In this document: piece after piece, positions 8,805 to 52,191 of the stretch | Layout of the letters: the number at the start of each line of letters is the position of its first letter | Numbering within the stretch: position 1 is the first letter of the stretch | Assembly (NCBI GenBank): GCA_017625535.1 | Contig: JAGAKR010000017.1 | Coordinates: forward strand, 103,204 to 167,203 | DNA: 64,000 nucleotides | Direction: 5' to 3' | From: Bacteroidales bacterium | Lineage (GTDB): Bacteria > Bacteroidota > Bacteroidia > Bacteroidales > UBA932 | Program-made: the position numbers and the translations under genes | Notes under the pieces: generated by a model | Seen by the model: only the letters and a program-made list of their open reading frames with translations | Told to the model about the DNA's origin: nothing | Database searches by the model: none

Positions 8805-8812
8805 TAATATAG

Positions 8813-8851
8813 CCTGCAAGGCCCTCAACCTATGATTTGAGGGCCGGCAGG
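8813..8851 (+). terminator. Strong hairpin ending the rpsL-rpsJ transcript
   Basis: A 9-base-pair stem (8820-8828 with 8837-8845) is extended by CCTGC/GCAGG (8813-8817 with 8847-8851) around small bulges. It has no good T-run, so it may be a 3'-end stabiliser or processing site rather than a classical intrinsic terminator. It begins 8 bases after the rpsJ stop. Confidence 0.55.
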
Positions 8852-8864
8852 TATATCATAAAAT

Positions 8865-8895
8865 TTTGCAGGTGTAAAAATTTTAATTATTTTTG
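8865..8895 (+). promoter_or_regulatory. tRNA-Met promoter
   Basis: TTTG (8865-8868) and TATTTTTG (8888-8895) are separated by 19 bases. The predicted start near 8902 is about 6 bases before the mature tRNA 5' end. Confidence 0.8.
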
Positions 8896-8907
8896 CATTC
8901 TCATTCG

Positions 8908-8982
8908 GGTCCTATAGCTCAGTTGGTTAGTAGCACCTGACTCATAATCAGGGGGTCGCTGGTTCAAGCCCAGCTGGGACCA
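8908..8982 (+). tRNA. tRNA-Met (anticodon CAT), probably elongator
   Basis: 75 bases. The acceptor arm pairs GGTCCTA with TGGGACC, the anticodon stem is CCTGA/TCAGG around loop CTCATAA, and the T stem is GCTGG/CCAGC. CCA is not encoded. The anticodon stem lacks the three G-C pairs of initiator tRNA, so elongator Met is likelier; an Ile tRNA with a lysidine-modified CAT cannot be excluded. It has its own promoter and terminator and sits exactly where the ribosomal cluster is interrupted. Confidence 0.92.
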
Positions 8983-9000
8983 CTTAAATGAGCAACAAAA

Positions 9001-9028
9001 AGCCTTGCAGAAATGCAGGGCTTTTTTT
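9001..9028 (+). terminator. Intrinsic terminator of tRNA-Met
   Basis: Stem AGCCTTGCA/TGCAGGGCT (9001-9009 with 9014-9022, one G-U), loop GAAA, then a T-run to 9028. The rest of the gene-free stretch 9029-9349 holds repeat copy A and otherwise nothing I can identify. Confidence 0.88.
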
Positions 9029-9085
9029 GTATCCAATTAGTTCAGTCTGTCGTTTGCCTGTCAGCCGGAGCCTGAACAGTAACTT

Positions 9086-9251
9086 CCCAAGAGGTTGTTC
9101 CACTCAACCCGCTCTACAGGCTTCCTGGTGCGCATTGCATACCCTAACCTCATCATTTAACTTGAGGTTAAGAATCTCCCTTAGCCACAAACAGGTTCTA
9201 CAGAGCGTACAAAGCCATTCCTGGCAAATCAAGCTCGCTTAACCTCTTGGG
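9086..9251. repeat. 166-base inverted-repeat element, copy A
   Basis: Bounded by perfect 11-base terminal inverted repeats CCCAAGAGGTT (9086-9096) and AACCTCTTGGG (9241-9251). An internal hairpin TAACCTC/GAGGTTA lies near the middle and CGCTCT/AGAGCG forms a further stem. It matches copy B at 12792-12957 in opposite orientation, the same length with about 13 differences by eye (roughly 92 percent). There is no open frame of note. A MITE-like non-autonomous element or a structured RNA repeat are the two readings; no target-site duplication is obvious. Confidence 0.8.
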
Positions 9252-9349
9252 GAACGGGAAAGTGAATGGAATATGAAACATCATTACTCAAAATGAAAAA
9301 CAGCCCATACTCATCTGAATATGGGCTGCAGTTTTTCTTTCAAGAAGTT

Positions 9350-10870
9350 TTACTCCACCTTGCACTCTACTGTAACAACCTTGTTTTTGGCCAGGTTGTT
9401 TGTGATTGAGAGTTCTGCAGATTTGCCGTCTGCCGCAAATTTCCATTGGATGTGTATTGAGGTTACCCAGTTCACATAGTGGAATGAGGTGTTGAGGGTG
9501 TTTTTCTCCCAACCGTAGCTTGCAGAGGCATAGAATGGCCCCTCAAGTCCTTTCTTCCAATCTATAGGGTTCAAGGAGTATGGAGGGTACCCTGCAATTT
9601 CCGATGTTTCCCAGTTCCTGTAACCAAGTTTCTGGGTGTAAGTTGAGCCATCCTGCATAACAATGTGCATAAGCATCTGCTGTTTGCCCACTTTCTCCAG
9701 TGAAACCTCTTTCCAGCCATAATTTGCAATAGGTACATTTTTGCCCGGAATAACTATTTTCTTCCCGACAATTTTTTTCTCAACAGATGAAGCGGCCTTT
9801 CCTGCAGGAAGTTCAAGGGTATAGGCAGCCTGTTTTTTCTTCAGCAACTCATAATCCTTGCTTGCAGGGAGCGGACCATCTGCCAAGGCAGGAAGGAATT
9901 TGTCCCAGATAAGTCCTCTCTGAGGCTTGCCGTTGGTAAATGAAGCCTCTGTAAGTACTATAACCACATCTTTCTGAGGAACTACAATCACATACTGGCC
10001 AAGGGCGCCGTCAGCCCTTACTGCACTTGGATATTTGCACATCCAAACCTGATATCCATAGCCGTAGTCACCACCGTTGGCGTGTTTTGTACCCATCTGC
10101 TCAATCCATTCTTTTGATACCAGTTGTTTGCCGTCCCATACACCGCCATCGAGCCACATCTGGCCCACTTTGGCAAGTGATTCACTCTGGATATGCAAAC
10201 CCCAGCCACCGGTATTTATCCCCTCAGGGCTTATCTCCCAGTTCACCTCTGTAATGCCCATTGGACCAAAAAGTTTCTCCTTAAGGTATTCAAGTACGGT
10301 TTTGCCGGTAACCTTCTGCACAATTGCAGAGATCATATAGGTAACCATAGAATCGTATGCAAATACTTCTCCCGGTTTGTTTACTACAGGTTTTGAGAGG
10401 AATGTTTCCACCCAGTTGGTAACTTTTGCACGCATTCCCCAATCGGGTTTTATGCCCGACTGCATGGTAAGAAGGTCCTCCAGGGTCATTGCTGCAAGGT
10501 TTGTAGAGATACTGTCGGGAAGATGCTCAGGGAAAAATGCTGCAACCCTGTCTGTGAGGCGGAGCCTGTTCTCATCTATGGCAATTCCCACTGCAAGGCT
10601 CACAAGGGTCTTTGAACTTGAGTATTGGGTATGCCGGTACTCCGGTGCAAACGGTGCAGGATAGAATTCTCCCACAACTTTGCCGTGGCGCATTACAATC
10701 ATACTGTGAATGTCTGTGCCGGGCATTACGTGCAATGAGTCAAACAGGACAACAAGGGCCTTGGAAGGGACACCCTGCTCCTCTGGGGTGGAACGTGGAA
10801 GTTCATTTATCTGTGCATTTGCACCAATGGCCGTACAGGCCAGCAGAAGTATCAGAAAGAATCTTTTCAT
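9350..10870 (-). CDS. Secreted serine hydrolase, class C beta-lactamase/esterase fold
   Basis: 506 residues with an N-terminal signal peptide ending near A-N-A-Q (residue 20). The serine beta-lactamase-like module has the S-x-x-K motif at Ser84-Lys87 and the second-motif tyrosine in Y172-D-S174. About 150 extra residues follow the catalytic domain, as in many Bacteroidales 'serine hydrolase' proteins. Likely periplasmic or outer-membrane facing; members act as esterases, D-amino-acid peptidases or penicillin-binding enzymes, so the substrate is unknown. It is divergent from the MATE gene and lies inside the segment flanked by the inverted repeats. Confidence 0.85.
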   Translation of the reverse strand: MKRFFLILLLACTAIGANAQINELPRSTPEEQGVPSKALVVLFDSLHVMPGTDIHSMIVMRHGKVVGEFYPAPFAPEYRHTQYSSSKTLVSLAVGIAIDENRLRLTDRVAAFFPEHLPDSISTNLAAMTLEDLLTMQSGIKPDWGMRAKVTNWVETFLSKPVVNKPGEVFAYDSMVTYMISAIVQKVTGKTVLEYLKEKLFGPMGITEVNWEISPEGINTGGWGLHIQSESLAKVGQMWLDGGVWDGKQLVSKEWIEQMGTKHANGGDYGYGYQVWMCKYPSAVRADGALGQYVIVVPQKDVVIVLTEASFTNGKPQRGLIWDKFLPALADGPLPASKDYELLKKKQAAYTLELPAGKAASSVEKKIVGKKIVIPGKNVPIANYGWKEVSLEKVGKQQMLMHIVMQDGSTYTQKLGYRNWETSEIAGYPPYSLNPIDWKKGLEGPFYASASYGWEKNTLNTSFHYVNWVTSIHIQWKFAADGKSAELSITNNLAKNKVVTVECKVE

Positions 10871-10895
10871 GTTAAGATGTGTTTTATGTCAAACA

Positions 10896-10927
10896 CAAAT
10901 TTAGCCAGAAATTGGATTTGATTCAAG
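10896..10927 (-). promoter_or_regulatory. Promoter of the serine hydrolase gene
   Basis: On the minus strand: CTTG (complement of 10924-10927) and TAAATTTG (complement of 10896-10903), 20 bases apart. Predicted start near 10889, about 19 bases before the ATG at 10870. Confidence 0.6.
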
Positions 10928-10929
10928 TA

Positions 10930-10964
10930 TTTGGAGCCAATAATGGGCTTTTTTTGTACCTTTG
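10930..10964 (+). promoter_or_regulatory. Promoter of the MATE exporter gene, nearly leaderless
   Basis: TACCTTTG at 10957-10964 with TTTG at 10930-10933 (spacer 23, longer than usual). Transcription should start near 10970, leaving only about 3 bases before ATG 10973. This rules out the longer frame that begins inside the promoter. Confidence 0.6.
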
Positions 10965-10972
10965 CGCCCCGT

Positions 10973-12313
10973 ATGAACAGAGACGCCATAGATTTTCAGA
11001 ATGCACCGGTTTCCAGACTTTTCAGGAAACTGCTGTTGCCAACACTGCTGGGAACACTCTCAATTGCAGCTGTTACGGCAATAGACGGCATATTTATAGG
11101 CCACGGTGTGGGGGCTGATGGTGTTGCGGCTGTGAACATTGCAGTACCTATATACCAGATAATGTCGGGAATAGGATTGATGGTTGGAGTGGGATGTTCT
11201 GTGGCCGCGTCTATACATCTTTCGCAGGGGAAGGCCAAAGTTGCAAGATATAATGTTACCCAGGCAATTGTATCTACATCCATTCTGGCAGCCGTTGCGT
11301 GCGCGCTGGTATGGTGTTTCCCAAAGCAGACCGCATTGTTGCTGGGCTCTTCCCAAACACTGCTGCCGCAGGTGAAGGATTATCTTGTGTGGATAATGCC
11401 AAGTTTCATTTTTGAGATGTGGAGCCTTATAGGACTGTTTATAATAAGGCTTGACGGCTCGCCCCGCTATGCAATGTGGTGCAACGTAATAAATTCCATC
11501 CTTAATGCGGTTATGGACTGGGTGTTCATCTTCCCTTTGGATATGGGTGTAAAAGGGGCTGCCATTGCTACGGCAATAAGCATATCTGCCGGAGGAGTGA
11601 TGGCTCTGGCATACCTGCTGTTCTCAAAAGGAAAATTGAACCTTATACCCCTCAAGGCCAGTACCAAGAGCCTCATGCTGGCTTTGCGCAATGTAGGGTA
11701 CCATTGCAGGATAGGCTCTTCAACCCTGCTGGGGGAACTTACACTGGCAGTGTTCTTCTTTATCGGGAATCAGGTATTTATGCGTTACCTTGGGGACAAC
11801 GGAGTGGGGGCATTCGGCATTGCCTGTTATTATGCGCCGTTTTTCTTTATGGTAGGCAACTCAATAGCCCAATCTGCACAGCCCATAATAAGCTACAACT
11901 ACGGCATCTCCAGATGGGGCCACATTGCCCAGGCAAGAAGGCTGCTCCTTGGCACCTCTGCCCTGTTCGGGGTGGCAGTATCCCTGCTCTTCATTTTTAT
12001 TCCCGACAGCCTGGTGGCCCTTTTCATAGCCCCTTCAACCCCCGCGGCAAGGATAGCCATTGAAGGGTTCCCCTATTTTGCCGCGGGAATCATATTCTTT
12101 ATCCTGAATGTGGCAATCATTGGATACTACCAAAGCATAGAACAGGTAAAACGGGCCACTGTGATGGTTTTTCTGCGTGGACTGGTATTTCTGCTGCCAA
12201 GTTTCATTATGCTGCCCAAATTGCTTGGAATACCTGGAATATGGCTTGCAATGCCTCTTGCGGAGGCCCTTACCCTTGCCGTAATCACCTACATTCTCCT
12301 TGCAAAGAAATAA
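10973..12313 (+). CDS. MATE-family multidrug efflux transporter
   Basis: 446 residues from ATG 10973, chosen because the promoter -7 box ends 8 bases upstream. About 12 hydrophobic segments form two homologous halves. The N-terminal region has P-T-L-L-G-T-L-S-I-A-A-V-T-A-I-D-G-I-F-I-G, typical of the MATE DinF/NorM-like group. Such proteins export cationic drugs or metabolites using Na+ or H+ gradients. Its 3' end overlaps the convergent DoxX gene by 25 bases. Confidence 0.9.
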   Translation: MNRDAIDFQNAPVSRLFRKLLLPTLLGTLSIAAVTAIDGIFIGHGVGADGVAAVNIAVPIYQIMSGIGLMVGVGCSVAASIHLSQGKAKVARYNVTQAIVSTSILAAVACALVWCFPKQTALLLGSSQTLLPQVKDYLVWIMPSFIFEMWSLIGLFIIRLDGSPRYAMWCNVINSILNAVMDWVFIFPLDMGVKGAAIATAISISAGGVMALAYLLFSKGKLNLIPLKASTKSLMLALRNVGYHCRIGSSTLLGELTLAVFFFIGNQVFMRYLGDNGVGAFGIACYYAPFFFMVGNSIAQSAQPIISYNYGISRWGHIAQARRLLLGTSALFGVAVSLLFIFIPDSLVALFIAPSTPAARIAIEGFPYFAAGIIFFILNVAIIGYYQSIEQVKRATVMVFLRGLVFLLPSFIMLPKLLGIPGIWLAMPLAEALTLAVITYILLAKK

Positions 12314-12705
12314 TCGGCTGCAATTGAACCCGGCCCAAGGATGTACATTATAATGAAAATGAACAGATAAAGCAGGGCCATCTCCTTGGCTGAGAACGGA
12401 TCATTTGCGTGTACCACAAATGCAGCTATAATCATTGTGAAAATCATAGGAATCATTGAGAGCCTGTAGAGGAATCCTGTAATGAACCCCAATGTACAGA
12501 ACACCTCTGCAAAGATTGCCAGAGCCAGGGATACTGAACTGTTAAGCCCCATAACCCTTGGAAAAGAGTGTGACATTGCCCCAAAATTTGCCAGTTTCTG
12601 GAGTCCGTGGGTAAGGAACATTGCCCCAAAGGCAATCCTTGCCATTACAAGCATAACTGAAAGTCCAAAATTGTGGTAAGCCGGAAATAGAAAATCTCTT
12701 AACAT
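12289..12705 (-). CDS. DoxX-family membrane protein
   Basis: 138 residues from ATG 12705; an in-frame TTG eight codons upstream is possible but less likely. Four hydrophobic segments with R-I-A-F-G-A-M-F-L-T-H-G-L-Q-K-L in the first and a conserved A-E-V-F-C-T-L-G-F-I-T-G segment mark the DoxX family. Members are small membrane proteins linked to oxidative-stress and thiol metabolism in some bacteria; the reaction here is unknown. It overlaps the MATE gene tail-to-tail. Confidence 0.85.
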   Translation of the reverse strand: MLRDFLFPAYHNFGLSVMLVMARIAFGAMFLTHGLQKLANFGAMSHSFPRVMGLNSSVSLALAIFAEVFCTLGFITGFLYRLSMIPMIFTMIIAAFVVHANDPFSAKEMALLYLFIFIIMYILGPGSIAADYFFARRM

Positions 12706-12791
12706 AACTGGGTTTTCTTTCCCAAACAATCGGATATATGGGATTGTTCATCAGCTGTCTCACTCCACCCCCCCCGGTCTCCGGCCGCCTA

Positions 12792-12957
12792 CCCAAGAGG
12801 TTAGGCGAGTTGGGTTTGCCAGGAATGGCTTTGTACGCTCTATGGAGCCTGTTTGTGGCTAAGGGAGATTCTTAACCTCAAGTTAAATGATGAGGTTAGG
12901 GGATGCAATGCGCGCCAGAAAGCCTGTAGAGCGGTTTGAGTGGAACAACCTCTTGTT
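12792..12957. repeat. 166-base inverted-repeat element, copy B
   Basis: The reverse complement of copy A. One end reads CCCAAGAGGTT (12792-12802); the other, AACCTCTTG (12947-12955), has lost the final GGG. The internal TAACCTC/GAGGTTA hairpin and the CGCTCT(A)/(T)AGAGCG stem are kept. Copies A and B flank 3.5 kb holding exactly three genes. The gene-free stretch 12706-13139 contains this copy, a terminator hairpin (13050-13091) and a small AACAATC/GATTGTT inverted repeat at about 12725-12751. Confidence 0.8.
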
Positions 12958-13049
12958 AAAGCCTACAGAGTATATGGTGCGCAATTGAACTTTTTATTCA
13001 TGGCATTGTTATTTATATGAAATAGTTTTTTAAGTTAGGTTAAGTCGGG

Positions 13050-13091
13050 CAAACCCTGCAGCTTCGGGATGAGGTTGCGGGGTTTGTTTTT
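13050..13091 (+). terminator. Orphan intrinsic terminator
   Basis: Stem CAAACCCTGCA/TGCGGGGTTTG (13050-13060 with 13076-13086), a 15-base loop, then T-rich sequence on the plus strand. No plus-strand gene lies between the MATE stop (12313) and this site, so either a short RNA is made from about 12958-13050 or the terminator is left over from a lost gene. Confidence 0.6.
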
Positions 13092-13139
13092 GCACCTGCG
13101 CAAAATTGTCCCTATCTTCACATCCTCAATTTTAAGGTT

Positions 13140-13871
13140 ATGGAGAGTCTTTTCAGCAAGGTAAAATGTATTGCATTTGATGCGGATGATACCCTTTGGG
13201 TGAATGAACCATATTTCCGCAAAGCGGAGGAGGAATATTGTGCTGTATTGGAGCGTTTTGCCGGCAGGGAAGAGATCATTGATACCCTGTATGGGATTGA
13301 GATGAAGAACCTGGCCCCATACGGCTACGGAGCCAAGGCATTTACCCTTTCCCTTATGGAAACCGCAATCCTTTTCAGCAACAAAAGTGCTGTTCCACCA
13401 CTCACCCCATCAGAAATGCTGCGGATAATTGAAATAGGTACATCCCTGATAAATATCCCTATGGAAATCCTCCCCGGTGTGGAAGAGGTGTTGGAAGATT
13501 TGTCGGGAAGCGGGAAATATACCCTTGTGGTGGCCACCAAGGGGGATTTGCTGGACCAGCAGAGGAAACTGGAGCGTTCAGGTCTGGCAAAGTATTTTCA
13601 CCACATTGAGGTGATGAGCAACAAGGATGAAGCTGCCTTCAGCAGGCTTCTGGAGCACTTGGGCTGCCGCAATGATGAATTCCTTATGATTGGAAATTCC
13701 ATGAAATCAGACATCCTCCCCGTTCTTAATATTGGGGGGAATGCCATCTATATCCCGTTCCATTCAACGTGGGAGCACGAAAAGGTTGATGGGGAAGTGC
13801 AGCATCCAAACCTTTATGAATGCAATTCGTGCACAGAACTTAGAACTTCAGTTCCACTCCAAAGTTTATGA
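13140..13871 (+). CDS. HAD-superfamily hydrolase
   Basis: 243 residues. Motif I is D14-A-D16-D-T with the flanking I-A-F and L-W expected of HAD phosphatases; motif II is the T of V-A-T-K-G-D, and motif IV is in I-G-N-S-M-K-S-D-I. The cap insertion between residues 25 and 115 is helical (C1 type). Soluble phosphatase; substrate unknown. Its last 32 bases overlap the convergent DUF5686 gene. Confidence 0.87.
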   Translation: MESLFSKVKCIAFDADDTLWVNEPYFRKAEEEYCAVLERFAGREEIIDTLYGIEMKNLAPYGYGAKAFTLSLMETAILFSNKSAVPPLTPSEMLRIIEIGTSLINIPMEILPGVEEVLEDLSGSGKYTLVVATKGDLLDQQRKLERSGLAKYFHHIEVMSNKDEAAFSRLLEHLGCRNDEFLMIGNSMKSDILPVLNIGGNAIYIPFHSTWEHEKVDGEVQHPNLYECNSCTELRTSVPLQSL

Positions 13872-16380
13872 CCCAGGCGGTGGTTTTCTCGCCAAGGTAG
13901 TTGTGCCTGTGGTTGAGGCGCCAGTAGCTGTCTACCCTAAAGAGGCGGAAGATGTTGGTAATTCCAACTCCGGCTTCAAAGTAGGGTTTGCTTACTCCGC
14001 TCATTCCGGCAGGGAAGAGGAGATATGGCTGTGCAGCTCCCGGTGCAAATTGTCCGGTGGCAGGATCAGTATGGGATGAGATGTATTCTGCGCTTCCGTT
14101 GTTTTTGTCTTCCAGGGTTCCCACAACACCCCTGAATGATACCACTTCCCTCCATTTGAGTTTCTTGAGGAGCGGAATTTTGCCCAGGAAGAATCCTTTG
14201 AAGTTGTGTTCCCAGAACCATTGTACCCAGGTGTCTGATGCAAATTCGTAGAAATCCATACAGGCAAATGCACCTTCTGAGTTGAAGTAGGTACCGTTGC
14301 CTTCGTGCAATTTGAGGAACGGATATGGTACTTTGCCCCAAATTTTTCCTGCCTGAATCCTGAAGTATGATGTGCCAAGAGGTGGGAGGGCCAAGTCATA
14401 TCCAATCCCTATTTCACCCCTCAGGTAGTTGTAACTCCCTTTCCACAAATCTTTGAGCCCGGCCCTGATGTTGGCGGTGATTATAGGATAATCCGAGCCC
14501 AGATACATTTTGTCAAAATGGTCTCGGTTTACCATTTCATTCCAGCTGAGTCTGGCACCAAATCCTATGGAGGCGCTCCGTACGGCATTTACAATAGTGC
14601 TGTCGGGAGTATACATCTCCACATATCTGTTGCCGGCAATGCGGTTGATATCTGCGCTCCATATTGTGGTTATGCCGTCTGTCCACTCGTGTTCGTATGA
14701 AAGGCTGCCCCGGTTAACCATACTCAGGCGCTGGCTGTTCCCTTTGGAGAGGAGAGAGCCCATTATGTTTCCCTCTGTAAAGGCATCCGAACCGGCTCCC
14801 AACTGCAGGGCATCCCGGCGGTATGTTGCGGTAAGTTTGCGGGTGGGCTGCTTGCCAAGCATATATTCTACTGTTCCTCCACCTTTCCACTCTTTGTCTT
14901 TTGTGCCGTATGCGGCATATCCTCCAAGCCGTATCTTTTTGCTCCAGTCTGAGGTTGTGCGGATGCCGGCCTGAAATCTGGCCCCTTCAAGATTATTGAA
15001 ACTGAAGAGCTTGTAGTATGGGCCCAGTTCTATTTCCCCAAACTCATAATAGCCGCCAAACAGGGCGGAAACAATATTGTAGAGCGTGTTGTAGATCGGC
15101 ACATTCTGAATGGAATCCACCATATTGTATATGTTCTGCTCTTTTTGGGTAAGTGCATACGGGCGCTCCTTTTCCCAGTAGGCGGGGTCATTCTGCAACA
15201 CATTTTCATCAATCACCACATTTGTGTTGAGTTTTAGCACCTCTTTTGGAGTGGGCTGGTTAATGGCCACATCTGAGTAGCTTACCTCCCTGTGCCCAAG
15301 GAATGAGACAATCTTTGAGGAATCGCTCATTGTAACGGAGAAATCTGCATAGAGTTTCTCCCTTTTGTTGAACCAGGTGGAATCATTTACAAGCTGGTTT
15401 TCCACATCAATTGCCAAATCCCTTACCCAGTTTACGTTAAGCCCCTTTACCATCTTTACGTGGGCATCACGCAGGGCCATTGTGGTTGAGTCTATTGTAA
15501 ATTCACCGTCAAGCACCGGAGCGGATTTCATCTTTGGATGGAAACGGAGCTTGTAGGTCTTGCGTCCATCCACCTTCAGACTGTCTATAAGGTAATAGTT
15601 ATAGTACATGAAGCCGTGCTCGCTCAGGGGAGAGGCAAACTTTATGTAGAAGATGTCTATGTAGTTGTCATACAGGTTCACATTGGCATGCAGATGCCCG
15701 GTAAATTGGGCCAAAGAGTAATCTTCCTCTATTCCCGATATCCTGCTGGCATCTATGATTTCCCTGGAAAGGGGAGGGTCCTTCTGCCTGTAGTGCCTTG
15801 CCGATGACTCAGTAATCATTATGGGAAGGTATGGTATTCCCGATATGGCAGAAGTATCCATATAATCCTCCACAAACCCAAAGTTCTTCTTCAGGAACTT
15901 TATCTTCAGCAGGGGATCCACATTGGCAATGTCAAGTTCCATTTTGCTGTAGACTTTGCTCCGGGAACTCTCATATTCGTCGGGATTATTATATTTTTTC
16001 CTCTCATAGACCTTCTGCATAAAGGCCCTTACCTTCTTGTCATCTGCCTTTACGGTTACCCCTTCCAGCATTATGGAGAGGGGCTTGAGGACAAAATTAA
16101 GTTCTGTAAAGCCTCCTGGGGTTATCTTGCCTTCTGAACCCTCATACCCCATCATCTCTGCCTTTAATGTTGCAGGGACACTCTGGCGGGTCTCAATGGT
16201 GTACACCCCGTCAAAATCTGTGGTAACTCCCACAGTGGTGCCGGGAAACCATACATTCACAAAGGGGAGGGGCTCACCTGTAGTTGCATCCTTAACCGTA
16301 CCCTTAACCTTTGTGGTCTGGGCAATGGCCGCAGTGCTTATCAGCAGCAGAGACAATATGTAAAAAAAATACTTTTGCAT
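13840..16380 (-). CDS. DUF5686/carboxypeptidase-regulatory-like outer-membrane protein
   Basis: 846 residues with a signal peptide (about 20 residues, ending A-I-A-Q). Residues 22-105 form a carboxypeptidase-regulatory-like beta-sandwich (K-V-K-G-T-V-K-D-A-T-T-G-E-P-L-P-F-V-N-V) of the kind that precedes SusC-type barrels. The remaining long region, rich in alternating and aromatic residues and ending with a phenylalanine-terminated strand (E-L-K-F), suggests an outer-membrane beta barrel of the DUF5686 family. There is no TonB plug. It follows the thioesterase gene in the same direction but has a -7 box (TACTTTTG, complement of 16400-16407) of its own. Confidence 0.75.
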   Translation of the reverse strand: MQKYFFYILSLLLISTAAIAQTTKVKGTVKDATTGEPLPFVNVWFPGTTVGVTTDFDGVYTIETRQSVPATLKAEMMGYEGSEGKITPGGFTELNFVLKPLSIMLEGVTVKADDKKVRAFMQKVYERKKYNNPDEYESSRSKVYSKMELDIANVDPLLKIKFLKKNFGFVEDYMDTSAISGIPYLPIMITESSARHYRQKDPPLSREIIDASRISGIEEDYSLAQFTGHLHANVNLYDNYIDIFYIKFASPLSEHGFMYYNYYLIDSLKVDGRKTYKLRFHPKMKSAPVLDGEFTIDSTTMALRDAHVKMVKGLNVNWVRDLAIDVENQLVNDSTWFNKREKLYADFSVTMSDSSKIVSFLGHREVSYSDVAINQPTPKEVLKLNTNVVIDENVLQNDPAYWEKERPYALTQKEQNIYNMVDSIQNVPIYNTLYNIVSALFGGYYEFGEIELGPYYKLFSFNNLEGARFQAGIRTTSDWSKKIRLGGYAAYGTKDKEWKGGGTVEYMLGKQPTRKLTATYRRDALQLGAGSDAFTEGNIMGSLLSKGNSQRLSMVNRGSLSYEHEWTDGITTIWSADINRIAGNRYVEMYTPDSTIVNAVRSASIGFGARLSWNEMVNRDHFDKMYLGSDYPIITANIRAGLKDLWKGSYNYLRGEIGIGYDLALPPLGTSYFRIQAGKIWGKVPYPFLKLHEGNGTYFNSEGAFACMDFYEFASDTWVQWFWEHNFKGFFLGKIPLLKKLKWREVVSFRGVVGTLEDKNNGSAEYISSHTDPATGQFAPGAAQPYLLFPAGMSGVSKPYFEAGVGITNIFRLFRVDSYWRLNHRHNYLGEKTTAWVINFGVELKF

Positions 16381-16441
16381 CCCAAGTTATAAAGAGCTGC
16401 AAAAGTATTTCATTTTCTCCAAATTCAGTGGTCTCAAATGG

Positions 16442-16897
16442 CTAAATTATATTCCATTTTTCTTTCCACTTTATGAAAAATTCCGGTGTGTTTATCTCTA
16501 TTTCGTTGTCTTCAACGCGGGTGAAGACCTGAAGGCTGCGGCCGAGGGCGGTTATGGCCATGTCGGATTCCCTGTAGATGACATATTCCATAAGGATTTT
16601 GGCCCCTTTGGTGTTTACAAAGCGGGTCTCCACAATGGCGGTGTCGCCGTGTTTGAGGGGCATTATGTAGTCCACCTCAAGTTTTACAATTGGGATGTAG
16701 TACCCTTCGTCTGTAATTGTGGTGTAGCTGAGTCCCCCGAATTCGCGTCCGAAGGCCTCGCGTCCGTCTTCAAAGTAGCGGGTGTATTCCCCGTGCCATA
16801 CAACGCGCATGGCGTCAACTTCGCTGAACCTTACCCTGAATGAGTGCCTGTTCACAAGCGATGGTTCCTGAAGTTCCAATCTGTGAATTCTTGCCAT
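16442..16897 (-). CDS. Hot-dog acyl-CoA/acyl-ACP thioesterase (YbgC/4HBT type, ApeK-like)
   Basis: 151 residues from ATG 16897; a TTG at 16942 directly after the LolA stop would add 15 residues without similarity. The 4HBT catalytic stretch V-D-A-M-R-V-V-W-H-G-E-Y-T-R-Y-F-E-D is clear near residues 20-40. Family members hydrolyse thioesters of CoA or ACP. As the last member of a ketosynthase/ACP/LolA/MMPL operon it matches the thioesterase position of aryl-polyene clusters, where it would release or edit the chain. Confidence 0.85.
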   Translation of the reverse strand: MARIHRLELQEPSLVNRHSFRVRFSEVDAMRVVWHGEYTRYFEDGREAFGREFGGLSYTTITDEGYYIPIVKLEVDYIMPLKHGDTAIVETRFVNTKGAKILMEYVIYRESDMAITALGRSLQVFTRVEDNEIEINTPEFFIKWKEKWNII

Positions 16898-16942
16898 AAT
16901 TTCTTTTTTACCCGGAACAATCCAAAGGGGCGGATTGTTCAA

Positions 16943-35698: not shown

Positions 35699-35713
35699 CG
35701 CCCGCTTTAGGCA

Positions 35714-35766
35714 ATAGTGGAAGGATTTGACTGCTTGCAACCACATTAAAAAATGCTAAAACGATT
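35714..35766 (+). ncRNA. SAM-II riboswitch
   Basis: The order of conserved elements matches SAM-II: P1 GTGG (35717-35720) with CCAC (35741-35744), a loop containing GATTTGA and CTTGCAA, then the A-rich linker and GCTAAAACG (about 35755-35763) that forms the pseudoknot. Binds S-adenosylmethionine. It precedes the SAM synthetase gene, a logical feedback target. Unusually it lies more than 120 bases from the start codon, whereas SAM-II usually acts close to the ribosome-binding site. Confidence 0.8.
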
Positions 35767-35892
35767 CCAATCATTTCAGCACAAAGTCAAAATCTTACAC
35801 TAAATTTTGTTAATCGGTATACATTTTGCGGCGTCAGTTGCAGAGCCGGAATTTGTTATCGGGAGTATTAATTTAATTTAGTTTTTAGAGTT

Positions 35893-37149
35893 ATGTCTTA
35901 TTTGTTTACTTCAGAGTCTGTTTCAGAGGGACATCCCGATAAAGTTGCAGACCAGATTTCAGATGCAATCCTTGATGAGTTCCTGCGCCAGGACCCTGAG
36001 AGCAAGGTGGCTTGCGAGACTTTTGTGAGCACCGGCCTTGTGGTTGTTGGAGGTGAGGTAAGGAGCGAGGATGCTTATGTAGATATCCAGCAGGTGGCCC
36101 GCAGGGTTATAAACAAGATTGGTTATACCAAGGCAGAGTATATGTTCGACGGCAACTCTTGCGGTATCCTTTCTGCCCTTCACGAGCAGTCTCCCGACAT
36201 CAACCGCGGTGTGGTTGTTGAGGACAAGGATGAGCAGGGTGCAGGAGACCAGGGTATGATGTTCGGCTATGCCTGTACAGATACCCAGGAGTATATGCCT
36301 CTTGCAATTTATCTTTCACACCTTGCACTTACAGAGTTGGCGGATATAAGGAAGAACACTTCACTTATGCCTTACCTGAGACCGGATGCAAAATCACAGT
36401 TTACAATTGAGTACGCAGATGATGATACCCCTGTACGCATCCATACAATTGTAATCTCTACCCAGCACGATGAGTTTGATTCAGACATTGCAATGCAGCA
36501 GAGGATAAAGAGCGACATAAAGAACATCCTTATTCCAAGAATGCTCAAGAAACTTCCTGCAGAGACTGCAGCATTGTTCAAAGGTGACTATATCCTGCAC
36601 GTAAACCCTACCGGCAAGTTTGTAATTGGTGGCCCTCACGGAGATACAGGTCTTACAGGACGTAAGATTATTGTAGATACCTACGGCGGAAGGGGAGCAC
36701 ATGGTGGTGGAGCATTTTCAGGTAAAGATTCAAGCAAGGTAGACCGCTCTGCAGCATATGCAGCCCGTTACATTGCAAAGAATCTTGTGGCAGCAGGTGT
36801 ATCTAAAGAGATTCTTGTACAGTTGGCATATGCAATTGGTGTGGCAAAACCTGTGAGTATCTTTGTAAATACCCGCGGAACCTGCAACCTCAACGGTGTA
36901 ACTGACGGTGAAATTGCACGCAAGATTGGAGAACTTTTTGATCTCCGTCCTGCAAAAATCATTGAAAAGTTTGATCTCAAGAACCCTATCTTTGAGGAGA
37001 CCGCAGCATACGGCCACTTTGGAAGGGCTCCTTACACAAAAGAGGTTGATGTAAGGGTAAACGGCCAGATGGTAAAGAAAGAGGTCCAGTTCTTCGGTTG
37101 GGAAAAACTTGATGCAGTTGAGAAAATAAAGGAGGCATTCAATCTGTAA
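35893..37149 (+). CDS. metK: S-adenosylmethionine synthetase
   Basis: 418 residues. Makes SAM from methionine and ATP. Conserved E-G-H-P-D-K (about 13-18) for ATP binding, G-E-V-R, the flexible loop [21 protein letters not shown] and the P-loop-like G-G-G-A-F-S-G-K-D are all seen. Slightly longer than the E. coli enzyme (384), normal for Bacteroidetes. Under SAM-II control by position. Confidence 0.97.
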
Positions 37150-43378: not shown

Positions 43379-43389
43379 CTATTTATAAT

Positions 43390-43788: not shown

Positions 43789-43809
43789 TTACAAAAACCG
43801 GAGACAAAA

Positions 43810-43839: not shown

Positions 43840-43856
43840 CTCATTTTCTTACCCAC

Positions 43857-46035: not shown

Positions 46036-46104
46036 AGAAATGGATATTTAACGCACAAAGATAATAAAAAATAATTAAACATTTTTAAATATGCATTTTG
46101 TGTT

Positions 46105-46112
46105 TATCTTTG
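46105..46112 (+). promoter_or_regulatory. ftsX operon -7 box
   Basis: TATCTTTG, with TTTT (46082-46085) 19 bases upstream as an imperfect -33 box. The start near 46119 gives a leader of only about 5 bases before ATG 46124. Confidence 0.5.
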
Positions 46113-46123
46113 AAGGTTAATTT

Positions 46124-47002
46124 ATGGGCAGAAAAGAGAAAAATATAATAGCCAGGAGGTTGCTGCATTCATACCTCTCCTCAATAATAAGCATTGCACT
46201 GGTTCTGCTGCTGATAGGGATTTTCGGAATCCTGGCGGTAAATGCAGGTTCTGTGCAGAATTATTTCAAGGAGAACGTGAAGATCTCTGCAATACTCAAG
46301 GAGAGTGCATCCGAGCAGCAGGCAAGGAAACTCCTGAGGCAGTTCGGGCAGTTGCCGGCAGTGAAGGAGACCCATTACATTTCAAAGGAGCAGGGTACAA
46401 GGGAGATGCAGGAGCTGCTGGGGCAGAATTTCCTTGATGCATTTGATTCCAACCCTATCCCAATCTCCATAGAACTGAACCTGAACGGGGAGTATTTTCA
46501 TCCCGACAGTATCCGTAACCTGTCGGTACAGTTGATGAAGGAGCCTCTGGTTGAGGAGGTGGCATACCAGGAGTCACTTCTGGAACTTCTCAACAACAAC
46601 ATGGAGAGGATCGCCTACTTTTTCATGGTATTTATAGCACTCCTTATGTTTATCTCTTTTGTCCTCATAAACAATACAGTAAGGCTCAATGTGTATTCCA
46701 AGAGGTTCTCAATCTATACAATGAGGCTTGTGGGTGCAAAACGGAGTTTCATAAGGGCACCGTTCCTTGTGAAATCAATTTTCCAGGGGATGTTGTCGGG
46801 ATTATTGGCAGCATTGGCCCTGTTGGGGATACTTTATCTTGTGAGGAATGAGTTCCAGCAGATGTTCTCCATTTTCAATATGGAGCTTGTGGCAATGGTG
46901 CTTGGAGGGGTAGTGGTGCTTGGGGCTTTCATATGCCTTGTGTGCACATTTTTTGTAGTGAACAGGCTTGTTTCACTCAGTAATGATGAATTGTATTATT
47001 AA
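46124..47002 (+). CDS. ftsX: Cell-division ABC transporter permease FtsX
   Basis: 292 residues. One N-terminal hydrophobic segment, a periplasmic domain (about 45-160) and three C-terminal segments match FtsX. With FtsE it controls peptidoglycan hydrolases at the septum; ftsE is not adjacent, which is usual in Bacteroidetes. First gene of ftsX-DUF3098-uppP-lpxH. Confidence 0.93.
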   Translation: MGRKEKNIIARRLLHSYLSSIISIALVLLLIGIFGILAVNAGSVQNYFKENVKISAILKESASEQQARKLLRQFGQLPAVKETHYISKEQGTREMQELLGQNFLDAFDSNPIPISIELNLNGEYFHPDSIRNLSVQLMKEPLVEEVAYQESLLELLNNNMERIAYFFMVFIALLMFISFVLINNTVRLNVYSKRFSIYTMRLVGAKRSFIRAPFLVKSIFQGMLSGLLAALALLGILYLVRNEFQQMFSIFNMELVAMVLGGVVVLGAFICLVCTFFVVNRLVSLSNDELYY

Positions 47003-47011
47003 AAGATTGAT

Positions 47012-47269
47012 ATGAAAGAGAAATTGGAAGGGACGGGCTTTGCAATGCCCAAGAAAAATATCCTGTATATAATTGCAGGCTTTGTAGTTATGCTTCTCGG
47101 CTATGCACTTATGGCTGGCGGAGGAAGTGATGACCCAAATGTGTTTGATGAAGGGATGTTCAGTTTCCGCAGGATTGTGGTTGCCCCTGTAGTGATAATA
47201 GTCGGAATTGTTGTGGAGATATGGGCAATTATGCATATAGGTAAAAACGGCGGGGAGGAGAGGAAATGA
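47012..47269 (+). CDS. DUF3098 small membrane protein
   Basis: 85 residues with two hydrophobic segments (about 19-37 and 56-76) around G-G-S-D-D-P-N-V-F-D-E-x-M-F-S-F-R-R, the DUF3098 signature. It is conserved between ftsX and uppP in Bacteroidetes, suggesting an envelope or division role, but the function is unknown. Its last 4 bases overlap uppP. Confidence 0.88.
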   Translation: MKEKLEGTGFAMPKKNILYIIAGFVVMLLGYALMAGGGSDDPNVFDEGMFSFRRIVVAPVVIIVGIVVEIWAIMHIGKNGGEERK

Positions 47270-48066
47270 GCTGGATTGAAGCAATACTCCTTGGACTGGT
47301 ACAGGGGCTTACAGAGTTCCTGCCTGTAAGCAGCAGCGGCCACCTTACTATTGCAAAGGAACTGTTCGGGATAGAGACATCCAATTTGAGTTTTGAGGTT
47401 ATGGTGCATGCTGCAACAGTGTGCAGCACCATTGTGGCTTTCAGAAAAGAGATTTGGGACCTGCTGTGCGGTCTGTTCAATGCAAAAATGAATCCGCAGA
47501 AGGAGTATATCCTTAAGATAGCAGTATCAATGATTCCTATCTTTATTGTGGGTGTGTTCTTCAAGGACCACGTGGAGGCTGTTTTCGGCGGAGGCCTGCT
47601 TGTGGTGGGATGTATGCTTCTCATTACAGCCGTGCTCCTCACTCTTAGCGAGTATCTTTCAAACAAGATGAACGGCGAAGGGCATCCTGTCCGTTTCAAG
47701 GATGCAATAATCATAGGCCTGGCACAGGCTTGTGCCGTGCTTCCCGGGCTTTCACGCTCAGGCACTACAATTTCAACCGGCCTAATGCTGGGTGTAAAGA
47801 AGGAGGATGTGGCACAGTTCTCGTTCCTTATGGTGCTGGTCCCTATTCTTGGAGAGGCCTTCCTGGAACTTGTGGGAGGTGATTTCTCAGGCGCGGCATC
47901 GGGTATTCCGGCCCTTTCAATGGCGTTGGGGTTTGTGAGCGCATTTTTGTCGGGATTATTTGCCTGTACCCTTATGATAAATATTGTAAAGAGGGCCAAG
48001 TTGTGGCTGTTTGCAATATATTGTGTAATTGCAGGTATGGCCTGCATCATAAGTACTTTGTTGTAG
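47266..48066 (+). CDS. uppP: Undecaprenyl-diphosphatase
   Basis: 266 residues, about eight hydrophobic segments. The BacA motifs are present: G-L-V-Q-G-L-T-E-F-L-P-V-S-S-S-G-H near the start and L-P-G-L-S-R-S-G-T-T-I-S in the middle. It recycles undecaprenyl pyrophosphate to the monophosphate carrier for wall and surface polysaccharides, and such proteins give bacitracin tolerance. Confidence 0.96.
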   Translation: MSWIEAILLGLVQGLTEFLPVSSSGHLTIAKELFGIETSNLSFEVMVHAATVCSTIVAFRKEIWDLLCGLFNAKMNPQKEYILKIAVSMIPIFIVGVFFKDHVEAVFGGGLLVVGCMLLITAVLLTLSEYLSNKMNGEGHPVRFKDAIIIGLAQACAVLPGLSRSGTTISTGLMLGVKKEDVAQFSFLMVLVPILGEAFLELVGGDFSGAASGIPALSMALGFVSAFLSGLFACTLMINIVKRAKLWLFAIYCVIAGMACIISTLL

Positions 48067-48067
48067 G

Positions 48068-48808
48068 ATGAGCCTTTATTACTTTGTTTCGGATGTGCAT
48101 CTGGGACTGGATTATAAGGATCCGGTTGCAAGGGAGAGGAGATTTGCCTCTTTCCTGAAGGGATTGCCTTCGGATACAAAGGCACTTTTTCTGCTGGGGG
48201 ATATTTTTGATTTCTGGTATGAGTATAAAAATGTTGTGCCAAGGAATTTTACCCGTACTTTGGGGGCTCTTGCAGATCTTGCAGACAAAGGGGTTGAGGT
48301 TTATTTTTTCAACGGTAACCACGATATCTGGACCTACGGCTATTTTGAGAAGGAGCTTGGCCTAAAGATACTTACCCAGCCGTATGTTGTGGAACTGGAG
48401 GGGAAGAGGTTCTGCCTTGGACACGGAGACGGGCTTGGTGAGGGTGATTTTGGGTACAGACTGCTCAATTGGGGCTTCAAGAACCGTTTCCTGCAGTGGC
48501 TTTTCAGTGGACTGCATCCCCGCTGGGCCTTTGGGCTTGCCCATTTGTGGAGCAGGCACAATAGGCTTACGCACGAAGACAACCCTTGGGAGTGGAGAGG
48601 TGAGGATGAGAGGATTGTGAAGTTTGCAAATTCATTCCAGAAGGGAAGGGATGAAAAGATGGATTATTTCATCTTCGGACATTTCCACTATAAGACACAT
48701 GTGAATCTTTCAGCGGGGGGCGAGATGTTCCTGCTTGGCGACTGGATACACAATCCCGGCTATCTGGTGTTCGACGGCTATACGTGCCAGTCTCCGAATA
48801 TTGAGTGA
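48068..48808 (+). CDS. lpxH: UDP-2,3-diacylglucosamine diphosphatase, LpxH-like
   Basis: 246 residues. Calcineurin-type metallophosphoesterase with S-D-V-H-L-G (about 8-13), L-G-D-I-F-D-F-W, G-N-H-D-I-W, G-H-G-D-G-L and G-H-F-H. LpxH hydrolyses UDP-diacylglucosamine to lipid X in lipid A synthesis. It starts one base after uppP. Its final 31 bases overlap the convergent DUF4294 gene. Confidence 0.9.
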   Translation: MSLYYFVSDVHLGLDYKDPVARERRFASFLKGLPSDTKALFLLGDIFDFWYEYKNVVPRNFTRTLGALADLADKGVEVYFFNGNHDIWTYGYFEKELGLKILTQPYVVELEGKRFCLGHGDGLGEGDFGYRLLNWGFKNRFLQWLFSGLHPRWAFGLAHLWSRHNRLTHEDNPWEWRGEDERIVKFANSFQKGRDEKMDYFIFGHFHYKTHVNLSAGGEMFLLGDWIHNPGYLVFDGYTCQSPNIE

Positions 48809-49416
48809 TAGAGGAACCAGAAGCGGCCGTCGTGGTACATCTGCCGGAGTTCTTCTATGAGTTTGTCCTCCCCAAACCGGTCGTATTGCTTTTTCAGGTC
48901 CGAGCCGAACAGTTTTGCAACACCCTGCCAGAATCCTGCGGCAGCACCACCCTTGTAGTTCCGTATAACATAATACGATGATATTCCCATCTCCCTGTCC
49001 ATAAGTTTGAGCAGGAGTTTCCCCTGGGTTATGGTGAGGTTCCTCAGCGGCTTTTCAAACTCCCTGAAGAGCCTTTTTTCATACTCTTTTATGTATTTGT
49101 CCCTCTCTTTTGGAGTGAAGTTTGATCGGGCTATAGTGCTGTCGGCATCCTGCATTATCTCTTTTGCCTTAAGGGCATATGGGTATACTTTGGCAAAATT
49201 GTGCACAGTGCGGTAGAATTTGCGCCACTCTTTGCTCTCCTTTACCCTGTCGGGACGATTATATATATAGGCCGGCCTTATTTTGTCTACGTACAGGGTG
49301 TCGCCGTCCACTATCTCGTATCCTATGGCATAACCCGGCTTCTGCGCATGTGAGATATTGCACAGAAGCATTGCCAACAGTGGCAAAACGCAATATTTTA
49401 AATATTTTTTGGCCAT
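48778..49416 (-). CDS. DUF4294 exported protein
   Basis: 212 residues from ATG 49416, which opens a signal peptide ending S-H-A-Q. The family core is G-D-T-L-Y-V-D-K-I-R-P-A-Y-I-Y and the basic Y-x-x-x-x-R-L-F-R-E-F-E-K-P-L-R-N-L-T-x-x-Q-G-K-L-L-L-K-L-M-D-R-E segments. Function unknown; periplasmic by signal. Confidence 0.85.
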   Translation of the reverse strand: MAKKYLKYCVLPLLAMLLCNISHAQKPGYAIGYEIVDGDTLYVDKIRPAYIYNRPDRVKESKEWRKFYRTVHNFAKVYPYALKAKEIMQDADSTIARSNFTPKERDKYIKEYEKRLFREFEKPLRNLTITQGKLLLKLMDREMGISSYYVIRNYKGGAAAGFWQGVAKLFGSDLKKQYDRFGEDKLIEELRQMYHDGRFWFLYHSIFGDWHV

Positions 49417-49484
49417 AAGTGATGCAAAATTACTAACTTTACAGATACTGCAAAAAACGTACACTAAACTTAACAATCTGAAAA

Positions 49485-50831
49485 ATGTTCAATACAGAAA
49501 TTTTCACACCCTGGGTGCTCCTTTCAGACCTGGGAATCATATCTGCCCTGCTTCTTGTAGGTAAACTTATAAGGGTAAAGGTAAAACTCATACAGAAACT
49601 CTTTATACCGCCTAGCCTCATTGCCGGTGTTCTGGGACTTGCGTTCGGCCCTAATGGTTTGGGATGGCTCCCTTTGTCGGGAAGCATGGGAACATATGCT
49701 GCGGTTCTTATTGCACTTGTTTTTGGTGCACTTCCGCTTTCTTCTCCAAAGTTCTCTGCCAAAGAAGTTGCGGGCAGAGTGGGCCCGATGTGGGCGTTTG
49801 CCCAGTTGGGTATGCTTGTGCAATGGGGACTCGCCGGCCTGTTCGGCATTTTTGTGCTCAAGTTGTTCTGGCCGGAGTTGAATGATGCGTTTGGCGTTAT
49901 GCTCTCTACAGGTTTTTATGGAGGACACGGAACAGCGGCTGCAATTGGAGAAGCTTTCAACGGCCTTGGTTGGGATGAAGCTGCAAGTCTTGGAATGACA
50001 ACTGCAACAATGGGTGTGATTTGTGCAATCATTGGAGGCCTTATTATGATCAAATGGGCGGCCAAGAACAAGCAGACCGCTTTCATTGCAGATTTTGCAG
50101 ATCTTCCAAATGAGTTAAGGTCTGGTCTGGTTCCGGAAGAAAAAAGAGATTCTATAGGTAGTGCAACCACTTCTGCAATCTCAATAGAGCCACTTACATT
50201 CCATCTGGCCCTGGTGCTGCTTGTTGCATTTCTGGGATATTCAATGAGTGTGGGCGTAAAACAGCTGTATCCGCAACTTGAACTCCCTGTGTTCAGTTGT
50301 GCATTCATTATAGGTCTTCTGCTCAAGAAAGCATTTGACGCTACAGGTGTTACCAATTATATATGCCCCCAGACAACCCAAAGGATTGGAAGTATGGCTA
50401 CAGACCTGCTTGTTGCATTTGGAGTTGCTTCAATCAAACTGGGCGTGGTGGTAAAATATGCCATTCCATTGGTGGTACTTATCATTGCAGGTGCCTTGAT
50501 GGTATTTGCAGTTACATTCTTCTTTGGAAGGAGACTGTCAAAGACATACTGGTTTGAGCGTACAATTTTCGCATGGGGATGGTGGACAGGAACTATGGCA
50601 ATGGGTATTGCCCTCATAAGGATTGTAGACCCTAAACTGGCCAGCAAGGCTATGGATGATTATGCGCTTGCATATCTTCCTATTGCACCTGTAGAGATAA
50701 TACTTATAACATTTGTTCCAATCATGTTTGTTAACGGAATGGGTGTGTGGCTCTCTTTGGGATGTCTTCTATTGTCTGCCCTTATTGTGTTGCTTGCTGT
50801 AAAGATGGGCTGGTGGATAAAAAAGAAATAA
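49485..50831 (+). CDS. gltS: Sodium/glutamate symporter
   Basis: 448 residues, ten or more hydrophobic segments. GltS features: G-L-A-F-G-P-N-G-L-G in the N-half, S-T-G-F-Y-G-G-H-G-T-A-A-A-I and a G-W-W-T-G-T-M-A-M-G repeat in the C-half. Imports glutamate with Na+. A variant -7 box (TAACTTTA, about 49433-49440) precedes it. It is followed after 6 bases by a dipeptidase gene, a pairing that suggests amino-acid scavenging. Confidence 0.9.
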   Translation: MFNTEIFTPWVLLSDLGIISALLLVGKLIRVKVKLIQKLFIPPSLIAGVLGLAFGPNGLGWLPLSGSMGTYAAVLIALVFGALPLSSPKFSAKEVAGRVGPMWAFAQLGMLVQWGLAGLFGIFVLKLFWPELNDAFGVMLSTGFYGGHGTAAAIGEAFNGLGWDEAASLGMTTATMGVICAIIGGLIMIKWAAKNKQTAFIADFADLPNELRSGLVPEEKRDSIGSATTSAISIEPLTFHLALVLLVAFLGYSMSVGVKQLYPQLELPVFSCAFIIGLLLKKAFDATGVTNYICPQTTQRIGSMATDLLVAFGVASIKLGVVVKYAIPLVVLIIAGALMVFAVTFFFGRRLSKTYWFERTIFAWGWWTGTMAMGIALIRIVDPKLASKAMDDYALAYLPIAPVEIILITFVPIMFVNGMGVWLSLGCLLLSALIVLLAVKMGWWIKKK

Positions 50832-50837
50832 AAGTAT

Positions 50838-51938
50838 ATGAAAAAGATTTTTATGTTTGCGGCTGCACTGCTTTTGGCATATGGGGCAGGCGCACAGACC
50901 TCAGATGAGGCCTACAGGAAAAAGGCGGATGAAATACACGCCAAATACATTACAATAGACACCCATAATGATACAGCAATGTATCTGAATCATCCCGACA
51001 GCGATGACTGGAGTGTAACCAAAGGACAGGTTTCTTTCCCCAAAATGAAGGAGGGTGGGCTTGATGCGGCATTTTTTGCCATATTCCTTGACCAGGGCCC
51101 TTTGAGGGATTCTTCCAGAGATTCTGTATATGCCTATGCAATGAACGAGGTAAACACGTTCAAGGATTATGTTTCGCGCCATTCTGATGAGGCTGCCCTG
51201 GCTTTTTCACCGGAGGATGTGAAGAAATTGAAGAAGAGCGGTAAAAGGATTGTCATTTTGGCCATTGAGAACGGCTATGCAATTGGTACAGACCTTGATA
51301 AAATAGATGCATTCTACAATGCAGGCTGCAGGTACATTACCTTGTGTCACAACTACACAAATGACATTTGTGATGCTTCACGTTATGAGAATCCCAACGG
51401 ACACGGAGGGTTGTCGGCTTTTGGTGAGCAGGTTGTGAAGAGGATGAATGAACTTGGTATGCTTGTGGATGTTTCCCACGCCAGCACCTCTACACTTTAC
51501 GATGTAATAAAACTCAGCAAGGCTCCAATTTTTGCTTCTCACTCTGCAGTAAGGGCAATAAAGGATCATCCAAGGAATCTTACAGATGAGGAGATAAAGG
51601 CAATTGCTGCAACAGGGGGAGTGATTCAGGTAGCAACAGGCAGATGGTGTCTTACAAATGCACCAAAGTCTGAAACCAGTGTGAAACATCTGGCAGACCA
51701 TATAGACCGCATAAAGGGTCTTGTAGGTCCTGAGCATATAGGTTTGGGTACAGACTTTGACGGTGGTGGAGGAATGATTGACCTGAAGGATTGTTCACAG
51801 ATGAAGAACATCACTGTAGAGCTTTTGAAAAGGGGATACACAGAGAAGGAACTTGCAATGTTCTGGGGAGGCAACTTCATGAGGGTTTGGAAAGAGACCA
51901 TAAAGATTGCTGAAGACATTGCAAAAGGGAAAAAATAA
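50838..51938 (+). CDS. Membrane dipeptidase, family M19 (renal dipeptidase-like)
   Basis: 366 residues with a signal peptide (Y-G-A-G-A-Q, about residue 20). Zinc ligands in I-D-T-H-N-D-T, the bridging Glu in I-E-N-G-Y-A, and His in L-C-H-N and V-S-H-A-S, plus G-T-D-F-D-G. Cleaves dipeptides, often with D- or dehydro residues at the second position. Probably cotranscribed with gltS. Confidence 0.92.
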   Translation: MKKIFMFAAALLLAYGAGAQTSDEAYRKKADEIHAKYITIDTHNDTAMYLNHPDSDDWSVTKGQVSFPKMKEGGLDAAFFAIFLDQGPLRDSSRDSVYAYAMNEVNTFKDYVSRHSDEAALAFSPEDVKKLKKSGKRIVILAIENGYAIGTDLDKIDAFYNAGCRYITLCHNYTNDICDASRYENPNGHGGLSAFGEQVVKRMNELGMLVDVSHASTSTLYDVIKLSKAPIFASHSAVRAIKDHPRNLTDEEIKAIAATGGVIQVATGRWCLTNAPKSETSVKHLADHIDRIKGLVGPEHIGLGTDFDGGGGMIDLKDCSQMKNITVELLKRGYTEKELAMFWGGNFMRVWKETIKIAEDIAKGKK

Positions 51939-52097
51939 CTTGTTTCCGTTCAGGAAATTTATCAGTGAGTTCCGCACTTTCCAATTTCGTCCAAATTGGG
52001 GGTGCGGAATTTTTTTTGATTCTTGTAACTGCGTGAGAATGCACATGTTGGGAGTATGATTTTTTTGACTAAAATTGCTGAAATTCTCAAAAAAATA

Positions 52098-52127
52098 TTT
52101 GCATATTAAAAATAATGTGTATCTTTG
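52098..52127 (+). promoter_or_regulatory. Promoter of the rplP-headed ribosomal operon
   Basis: TTTG (52098-52101), 18 bases, TATCTTTG (52120-52127). Start near 52134; leader about 58 bases. It gives the truncated S10/spc cluster its own promoter directly ahead of rplP. Confidence 0.82.
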
Positions 52128-52191
52128 CAACCCAGCAAATGGGCTCCGTTACAGCCAAATAGCTGAGAATCAATAATTTATATTAAGAGTT

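Follow-up and report, generated by a model that had tools for sequence, protein, structure and literature searches.

Organization of the S10 operon in the window genome

Few gene orders in bacteria are as conserved as that of the S10 operon. In the Bacteroidales genome studied here, the operon was found in three separate pieces. The window, a stretch of 64,000 nucleotides (contig C11, positions 103204–167203), comes from a 2.18-Mb draft assembly that consists of 31 contigs and is 88.6% complete. Two of the pieces were located in the window, both on the + strand, with 43,387 bases between the end of rpsJ (8804) and the start of rplP (52192). The seven genes from rplC to rpsC, hereafter the block, were located on another contig, C29. 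The pieces and the genes between them are as follows:

5440–8804, + strand: first piece, rpsL (5440–5823), rpsG (5853–6329), fusA (6347–8464) and rpsJ (8499–8804), assigned from the list of open reading frames (ORFs) and protein clusters, S10 also by PF00338
8908–8983, + strand: tRNA with a CAU anticodon at the left joint, common to most of the split clade
8985–51938, no strand assigned: unrelated genes separating rpsJ from rplP, from the ORF list and a profile scan of eight window proteins
9350–10870: beta-lactamase-family protein, between rpsJ and rplP
10931–12313: MatE, between rpsJ and rplP
46124–47002: FtsX-like, between rpsJ and rplP
47266–48066: BacA, between rpsJ and rplP
50838–51938: M19 dipeptidase, between rpsJ and rplP
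52192–62810, + strand: third piece, rplP through rplQ (the rest of the S10, spc and alpha genes, with secY, map-like, infA-like and rpoA), from the ORF list and clusters, L16 also by PF00252
C29:90502–94399 (L003:8502–12399), outside the window, − strand: second piece, rplC-rplD-rplW-rplB-rpsS-rplV-rpsC, from the ORF list of C29

An earlier note on this DNA had described a cluster broken between rpsJ and rplP in one orientation, with rplC to rpsC absent from the window. The ORF coordinates confirmed the break, and the profiles PF00297 (L3) and PF00203 (S19) each had one match in the whole genome, on C29, and none in the window. S3 likewise had a single match in the genome, on C29 and outside the window. 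Locating rplC–rpsC elsewhere in the genome, a check that the note had proposed, found all seven genes intact and in their usual order on C29, where they do not join rpsJ to rplP. The block is flanked upstream by a divergent gene that we take to be purF-like, and on its 3′ side by a lysine-exporter (LysO) gene and a beta-lactamase-family gene.

Distribution of the split among relatives

The genes for L3, S10, L16 and S3 were located in 100 genomes: the genome itself, 38 others of the same genus, 21 from other genera of the family and 40 from other families of the order (L3 was found in 96, S10 in 92, L16 in 97 and S3 in 97). None of the 39 genomes of the genus had either junction, rpsJ–rplC or rpsC–rplP, intact. 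Thirty were non-adjacent at both: in 25 of these, both junctions were spread across contigs, and in five a single contig carried the partners of one or both junctions at a great distance from each other. For the other nine, a gene needed for judging both junctions was not found. Among the 21 other genera of the family, 16 were non-adjacent (rpsJ was not found in one of these, G049) and five were intact at both junctions (G043, G044, G045, G056, and G057). Outside the family, 35 of 40 genomes were intact at both, four were intact at the one junction that was judged, and one lacked the genes.

Because placement on different contigs alone proves nothing, the broken ends were read in 23 split representatives, seven from the genus and 16 from other genera. 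At least 211 bases 3′ of rpsJ (22 loci) contained no rplC, at least 2,507 bases 5′ of rplC no rpsJ, at least 417 bases 3′ of rpsC no rplP, and at least 2,325 bases 5′ of rplP no rpsC (23 loci each). The corresponding gaps in ten intact genomes were only 23 to 131 bases for rpsJ–rplC and −13 to 106 bases for rpsC–rplP, which indicated that the breaks are real. Counting that of the window, the split was present in 17 genera, with flanks available at the broken ends except for the rpsJ end of G049.

The single-contig relative G034 carried rpsJ at 825,793 (+), rplP at 864,578 (+), and rplC at 425,957 (−). G011 and G020 showed the same geometry on one contig: rpsJ was separated by 372 and 331 kb, respectively, from the block, which lies on the opposite strand. 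Across the three same-genus genomes with all pieces on one contig, the block was always on the strand opposite to rpsJ, at distances of 331–400 kb. The comparison of gene order in relatives that the earlier note had suggested thus revealed that the split is not peculiar to the window genome; it is an old trait common to its clade, a large group of uncultured Bacteroidales, and is shared by most sampled genera of the family.

Among the best 80 named matches to the rpsC protein of the window genome, 54 were intact at both junctions, ten were intact at the only one that could be judged, and 16 were split. Fifteen of these 16 fell inside the family clade, including Candidatus Coprenecus merdigallinarum (L009). 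The genus Coprenecus was assigned to the GTDB family UBA932 (PMC8035907), and NCBI places Candidatus Coprenecus in Rikenellaceae. By this kinship, the family of the split clade is most likely GTDB UBA932.

Phylogeny and junction neighbours

The main tree was built from 26 concatenated proteins of 33 genomes, 23 of them split (G045 had 42% of columns filled). The split mapped to one change, and the 23 split genomes formed a clade with a Shimodaira–Hasegawa-like approximate likelihood ratio (SH-aLRT) support of 100. The same single change was obtained from the seven block proteins alone and from 17 proteins outside the block (support 100).

The neighbours at the broken ends were partly shared. 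A CAU tRNA gene followed rpsJ by 14–208 nt in 19 of 22 split loci and in none of ten intact ones, which agrees with a single change. The distance was 1.7 kb in G046 and 4.8 kb in G053, and no such tRNA was seen in the 646 nt examined after rpsJ in G050. A gene of protein cluster 30 stood shortly 5′ of rplP in 16 of 23 split loci, often preceded by starch-synthase-like, ftsX-like, bacA/uppP-like, and metallophosphatase-like genes. A beta-lactamase-family gene was found within the examined stretch 3′ of rpsC in 13 of 23, and no neighbour was generally common 5′ of rplC in the 23 split loci.

Promoter-like starts and terminator-like ends

The following signals were found at the joints in the window:

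8807–8856, + strand: predicted terminator-like hairpin after rpsJ (fold −28.7 kcal/mol, z −6.7 against 100 shuffles)
8865–8895, + strand: TTTG-N19-TATTTTTG, promoter-like, before the tRNA gene, read by eye
52098–52127, + strand: TTTG-N18-TATCTTTG, promoter match before rplP, from the motif scan

The strong hairpin after rpsJ and the promoter ahead of rplP had both been pointed out in the earlier note, and they were recovered here. The motif TTTG/TAnnTTTG is that of the Bacteroidota housekeeping promoter. The best TTTG-N18-21-TAnnTTTG site was scanned in the 200 bases 5′ of each gene, and 9 or 10 of 10 positions were required for a match. Before rplC, a match was present in 23 of 23 split genomes and in one of ten intact ones; before rplP, the counts were 23 of 23 and none of ten. 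When 20 more members of the genus were added, both genes had a match in all 43 split genomes. Putative promoters with both boxes at the correct spacing thus precede rplC and rplP. The positive control rpsL matched in 20 of 20 split and seven of eight intact genomes. The controls rplN, rplE, and secY matched in none of 23 and none of ten each, and rpsJ in none of 22 and one of nine.

Hairpins were counted from 60 nt folded per locus with z under −2. They occurred 3′ of rpsC in 14 of 23 split loci compared with one of ten intact, and 3′ of rpsJ in 14 of 22 compared with none of ten, the rpsJ count being partly tRNA since the folded 60 nt include part of the tRNA at eight of the 22 loci. Every piece therefore begins at a promoter-like site, and most of the pieces finish with a terminator-like hairpin; these signals are presumably in use.

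In G050, the promoters of rpsL, rplC, and rplP were nearly alike, and promoter duplication was considered. It was dropped, as the motif is the general promoter style of that genome: with three or fewer mismatches it occurred at 35 places in G050 and none in the reversed control, and at one, one, and no places in G000, G047, and G044, respectively. The spacer of the 35 sites in G050 was near-constant.

Leader elements of rplC and rplP

Two leader elements were recognized in the genus of the window:

L003:12400–12524: rplC leader element with covarying arms and a loop of 11 to 102 bases
52128–52191, + strand: rplP leader, with a hairpin at 52142–52156 whose loop CCGTTAC is conserved in the genus

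Of 27 genomes of the genus, 26 had an rplC leader with ARYYGUAnCCA and an element near UGGCnAUGCRRYU, 11–102 bases apart; G014 deviated from this pattern. Its arms (13 distinct rows) comprised eight pairs, with 99% of cells paired and three pairs changed on both sides; the arms were chosen by a pattern written after inspection, which biases toward pairing. The covariation score was 0.324 compared with 0.185 in shuffles (none of 500 as high), and it was lower when the arms were slid. Three of five measures were above all shuffles, and the other two were reached by 61 and 431 of 500. By inspection, rplC has a short leader in place of these elements in the other 16 split genera.

Of 25 distinct rplP leaders, 24 of them from the genus and one from G046, all but that of G008 carried CCGUUAC in a small hairpin. 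RNAalifold gave four pairs, three with kept changes on both sides, at a weak energy of −1.8 kcal/mol. No leader family was matched in Rfam at gathering scores across the window and four loci; the rplC leader had no match up to E 1, and the rplP leader had two weak ones, both far below gathering scores.

We conjecture that both leaders may be autoregulatory. As a tentative idea, leader RNAs that arose after the break would let ribosomal proteins control the orphaned pieces in this genus, in place of the feedback on a single transcript, and would represent two undescribed autoregulatory RNAs.

Other features of the contigs

Immediately 3′ of rpsC, L003:8161–8500 is a short tandem-repeat-like stretch with ORFs of repeating residues. 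An FMN riboswitch (103.5 bits, L003:5624–5750, −) was detected on the same contig, and the ORF downstream of it is large and, we presume, outer-membrane-receptor-like. In the window, a SAM-II riboswitch (65.1 bits, 35711–35769) lies ahead of the ORF 35893–37149. A 16S rRNA gene begins about 0.7 kb past rplQ (63501–64000), and the contig terminates within it, which places the contig break at an rRNA operon adjoining the alpha genes.

Origin and route of the rearrangement

The best explanation, to which we assign a probability of about 0.9, is a genuine rearrangement that broke the S10 operon at the joints rpsJ|rplC and rpsC|rplP. It would have happened a single time, in the common ancestor of most of the genera sampled from one Bacteroidales family, and been passed on since then. 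The cluster now consists of three units: rpsL-rpsG-fusA-rpsJ with a hairpin and the tRNA gene behind it; the block, elsewhere in the chromosome; and rplP through rplQ. The rplC and rplP units would have gained the housekeeping promoter type already present at rpsL, and this shared promoter class may keep the three units co-expressed in place of one transcript. The earlier note had offered a true rearrangement with new transcription signals as one of two alternatives, and this is the one favoured by the layout shared by G034 and 17 genera and by the putative promoters before rplC and rplP.

The moves were most likely inversions, or an insertion followed by separation, inside one chromosomal neighbourhood. 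In eight genomes of the genus, rpsJ and rplP were 38–62 kb apart on one strand. In G002, rpsJ and the block were 46 kb apart on one strand, and in G039 the block was 21.5 kb from rplP. All the pieces lay in a region of about 278 kb in G052 and of 337 kb in G047. Pieces lying in one region with varied layouts fit repeated inversions or insertion-then-separation. In the latter model, described for this cluster elsewhere (PMC8046335), genes would first enter between pieces that later move apart; the split genomes differed in layout, and no intermediate stage was seen among them. Ancestral partner sites were sought by looking up the cluster 30 gene in 12 genomes, with its surroundings examined in nine intact ones (five family genera and four outgroups), and by examining the serine hydrolase located after rpsC in two genomes. 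In G034, GC skew was computed from 29 samples of 20 kb; the pieces could lie to either side of an origin at about 0.65 Mb.

Several points weigh against a single break with gained promoters. The intact neighbourhoods shared no helpful order with split genomes, and no ancestral adjacency was recovered. The skew of G034 was noisy, with a flat minimum from about 0.08 to 0.69 Mb, and dnaA lay at 76.6 kb; this falls short of demonstrating a simple inversion around the origin. The first branch of the split clade, G050, lacked the tRNA in the 646 nt seen as well as the cluster 30 gene ahead of rplP; thus, these junctions may postdate the break. G054 and G058 also belong to the earliest branches of that clade. 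For the promoters, rplB also matched in five of 23 split and one of ten intact genomes, and 5% and 8.5% of shuffled split rplC and rplP upstream sequences scored at least 9 (5–9% overall). The rpsJ hairpin count partly includes tRNA, as stated above. Finally, the distant Bacteroidales genome described below implies that these joints can break more than once.

The route may alternatively have been duplication of a segment bearing the cluster, followed by differential gene loss in each copy that left rpsJ, the block, and rplP apart. This route has been proposed for the S10 cluster in other phyla (PMC8046335), and the common strand and spacing of rpsJ and rplP in the eight genomes would fit it. 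Against it, L3, S3, and L16 were single in every matched family genome, and S10 was single except in G028; this absence of a second copy is weak evidence, because old relics would be gone. We consider duplication possible, though rather unlikely.

Recombination at the tRNA gene or at a repeat beside rpsJ is improbable as the cause of the break. The earlier note had named both as plausible recombination sites, and each is no more than 450 bases from rpsJ. The tRNA gene held up as a feature common across the clade, and it may be a consequence of the break; G050 showed none in 646 nt. The repeat did not: reported as 166 bases long, it is an inverted pair of 164 nt, 93% identical, at 9088–9251 and 12792–12955 in the window. 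It was found only in the contig of the window and in none of the other loci compared, and three diverged copies elsewhere in the genome were 72–75% alike. The repeat is thus younger than the break and unrelated to it, and it was rejected as the cause.

That the split arose several times in the family and merely resembles one event is very improbable. In its favour, the junction neighbours before rplP and after rpsC are not universal, and the 16th split named match, L031 (isolate Gx481_bin90), was kept outside the family clade by a branch with support 97, and in it the seven genes of the block are likewise detached at both joints. This genome apparently broke separately; an ATTG-N19-TACCTTTG site was read by eye ahead of its rplC, and only 850 bases follow its rpsC. 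Within the family, one change on three gene sets and the shared tRNA at the rpsJ joint argue against repeated origins. An error of assembly or binning, with chimeric contigs or with C29 coming from another organism, might be suspected in such a draft; wrong assembly was the other alternative of the earlier note. Such an error has a negligible chance, since the identical arrangement occurs in single-contig G034 and in 17 genera, the broken-end flanks were read, and the rplC proteins from C29 fall together with the genus.

Comparison with known disruptions and significance

Natural, inherited breaks of the S10-spc-alpha cluster are known as a kind. One study counted 163 events, with duplication, transposon-directed inversion, and invasion-separation as proposed routes, and 75 of 115 rearrangements left the operons themselves intact (PMC8046335). 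The split described here is of the same nature, with ancestral neighbours separated, genes intact, and inheritance in a clade beside intact sister lineages. However, those events concern other phyla, Bacteroidetes not being named in the main text of that study, and here the S10 operon is cut twice internally. In Aquifex aeolicus, ribosomal operons are scattered in the genome, so that operons of the cluster likewise occupy separate sites, whereas there mostly whole operons are apart, in another phylum (PMC3879981). The S10-spc-alpha locus of Leptospira also is reported to have an unusual organization conserved in a genus (PMC2481283). Relocation in Vibrio cholerae concerned the chromosomal place of the same genes, but there the whole locus was moved by hand, whereas the internal break here is natural (PMC4395360, PMC5347342, PMC10127744). 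No description of this Bacteroidales S10 split was found in searches of open-licence papers, and within that scope this particular split appears to be new.

Such a gap in a draft genome should not be taken for an assembly fault. A clade that lives with its S10 operon broken at one common pair of joints, next to sister genera in which it is whole, constitutes a natural experiment on whether a single transcript is needed for ribosomal protein balance and on how new promoters and leaders may compensate for lost co-transcription.

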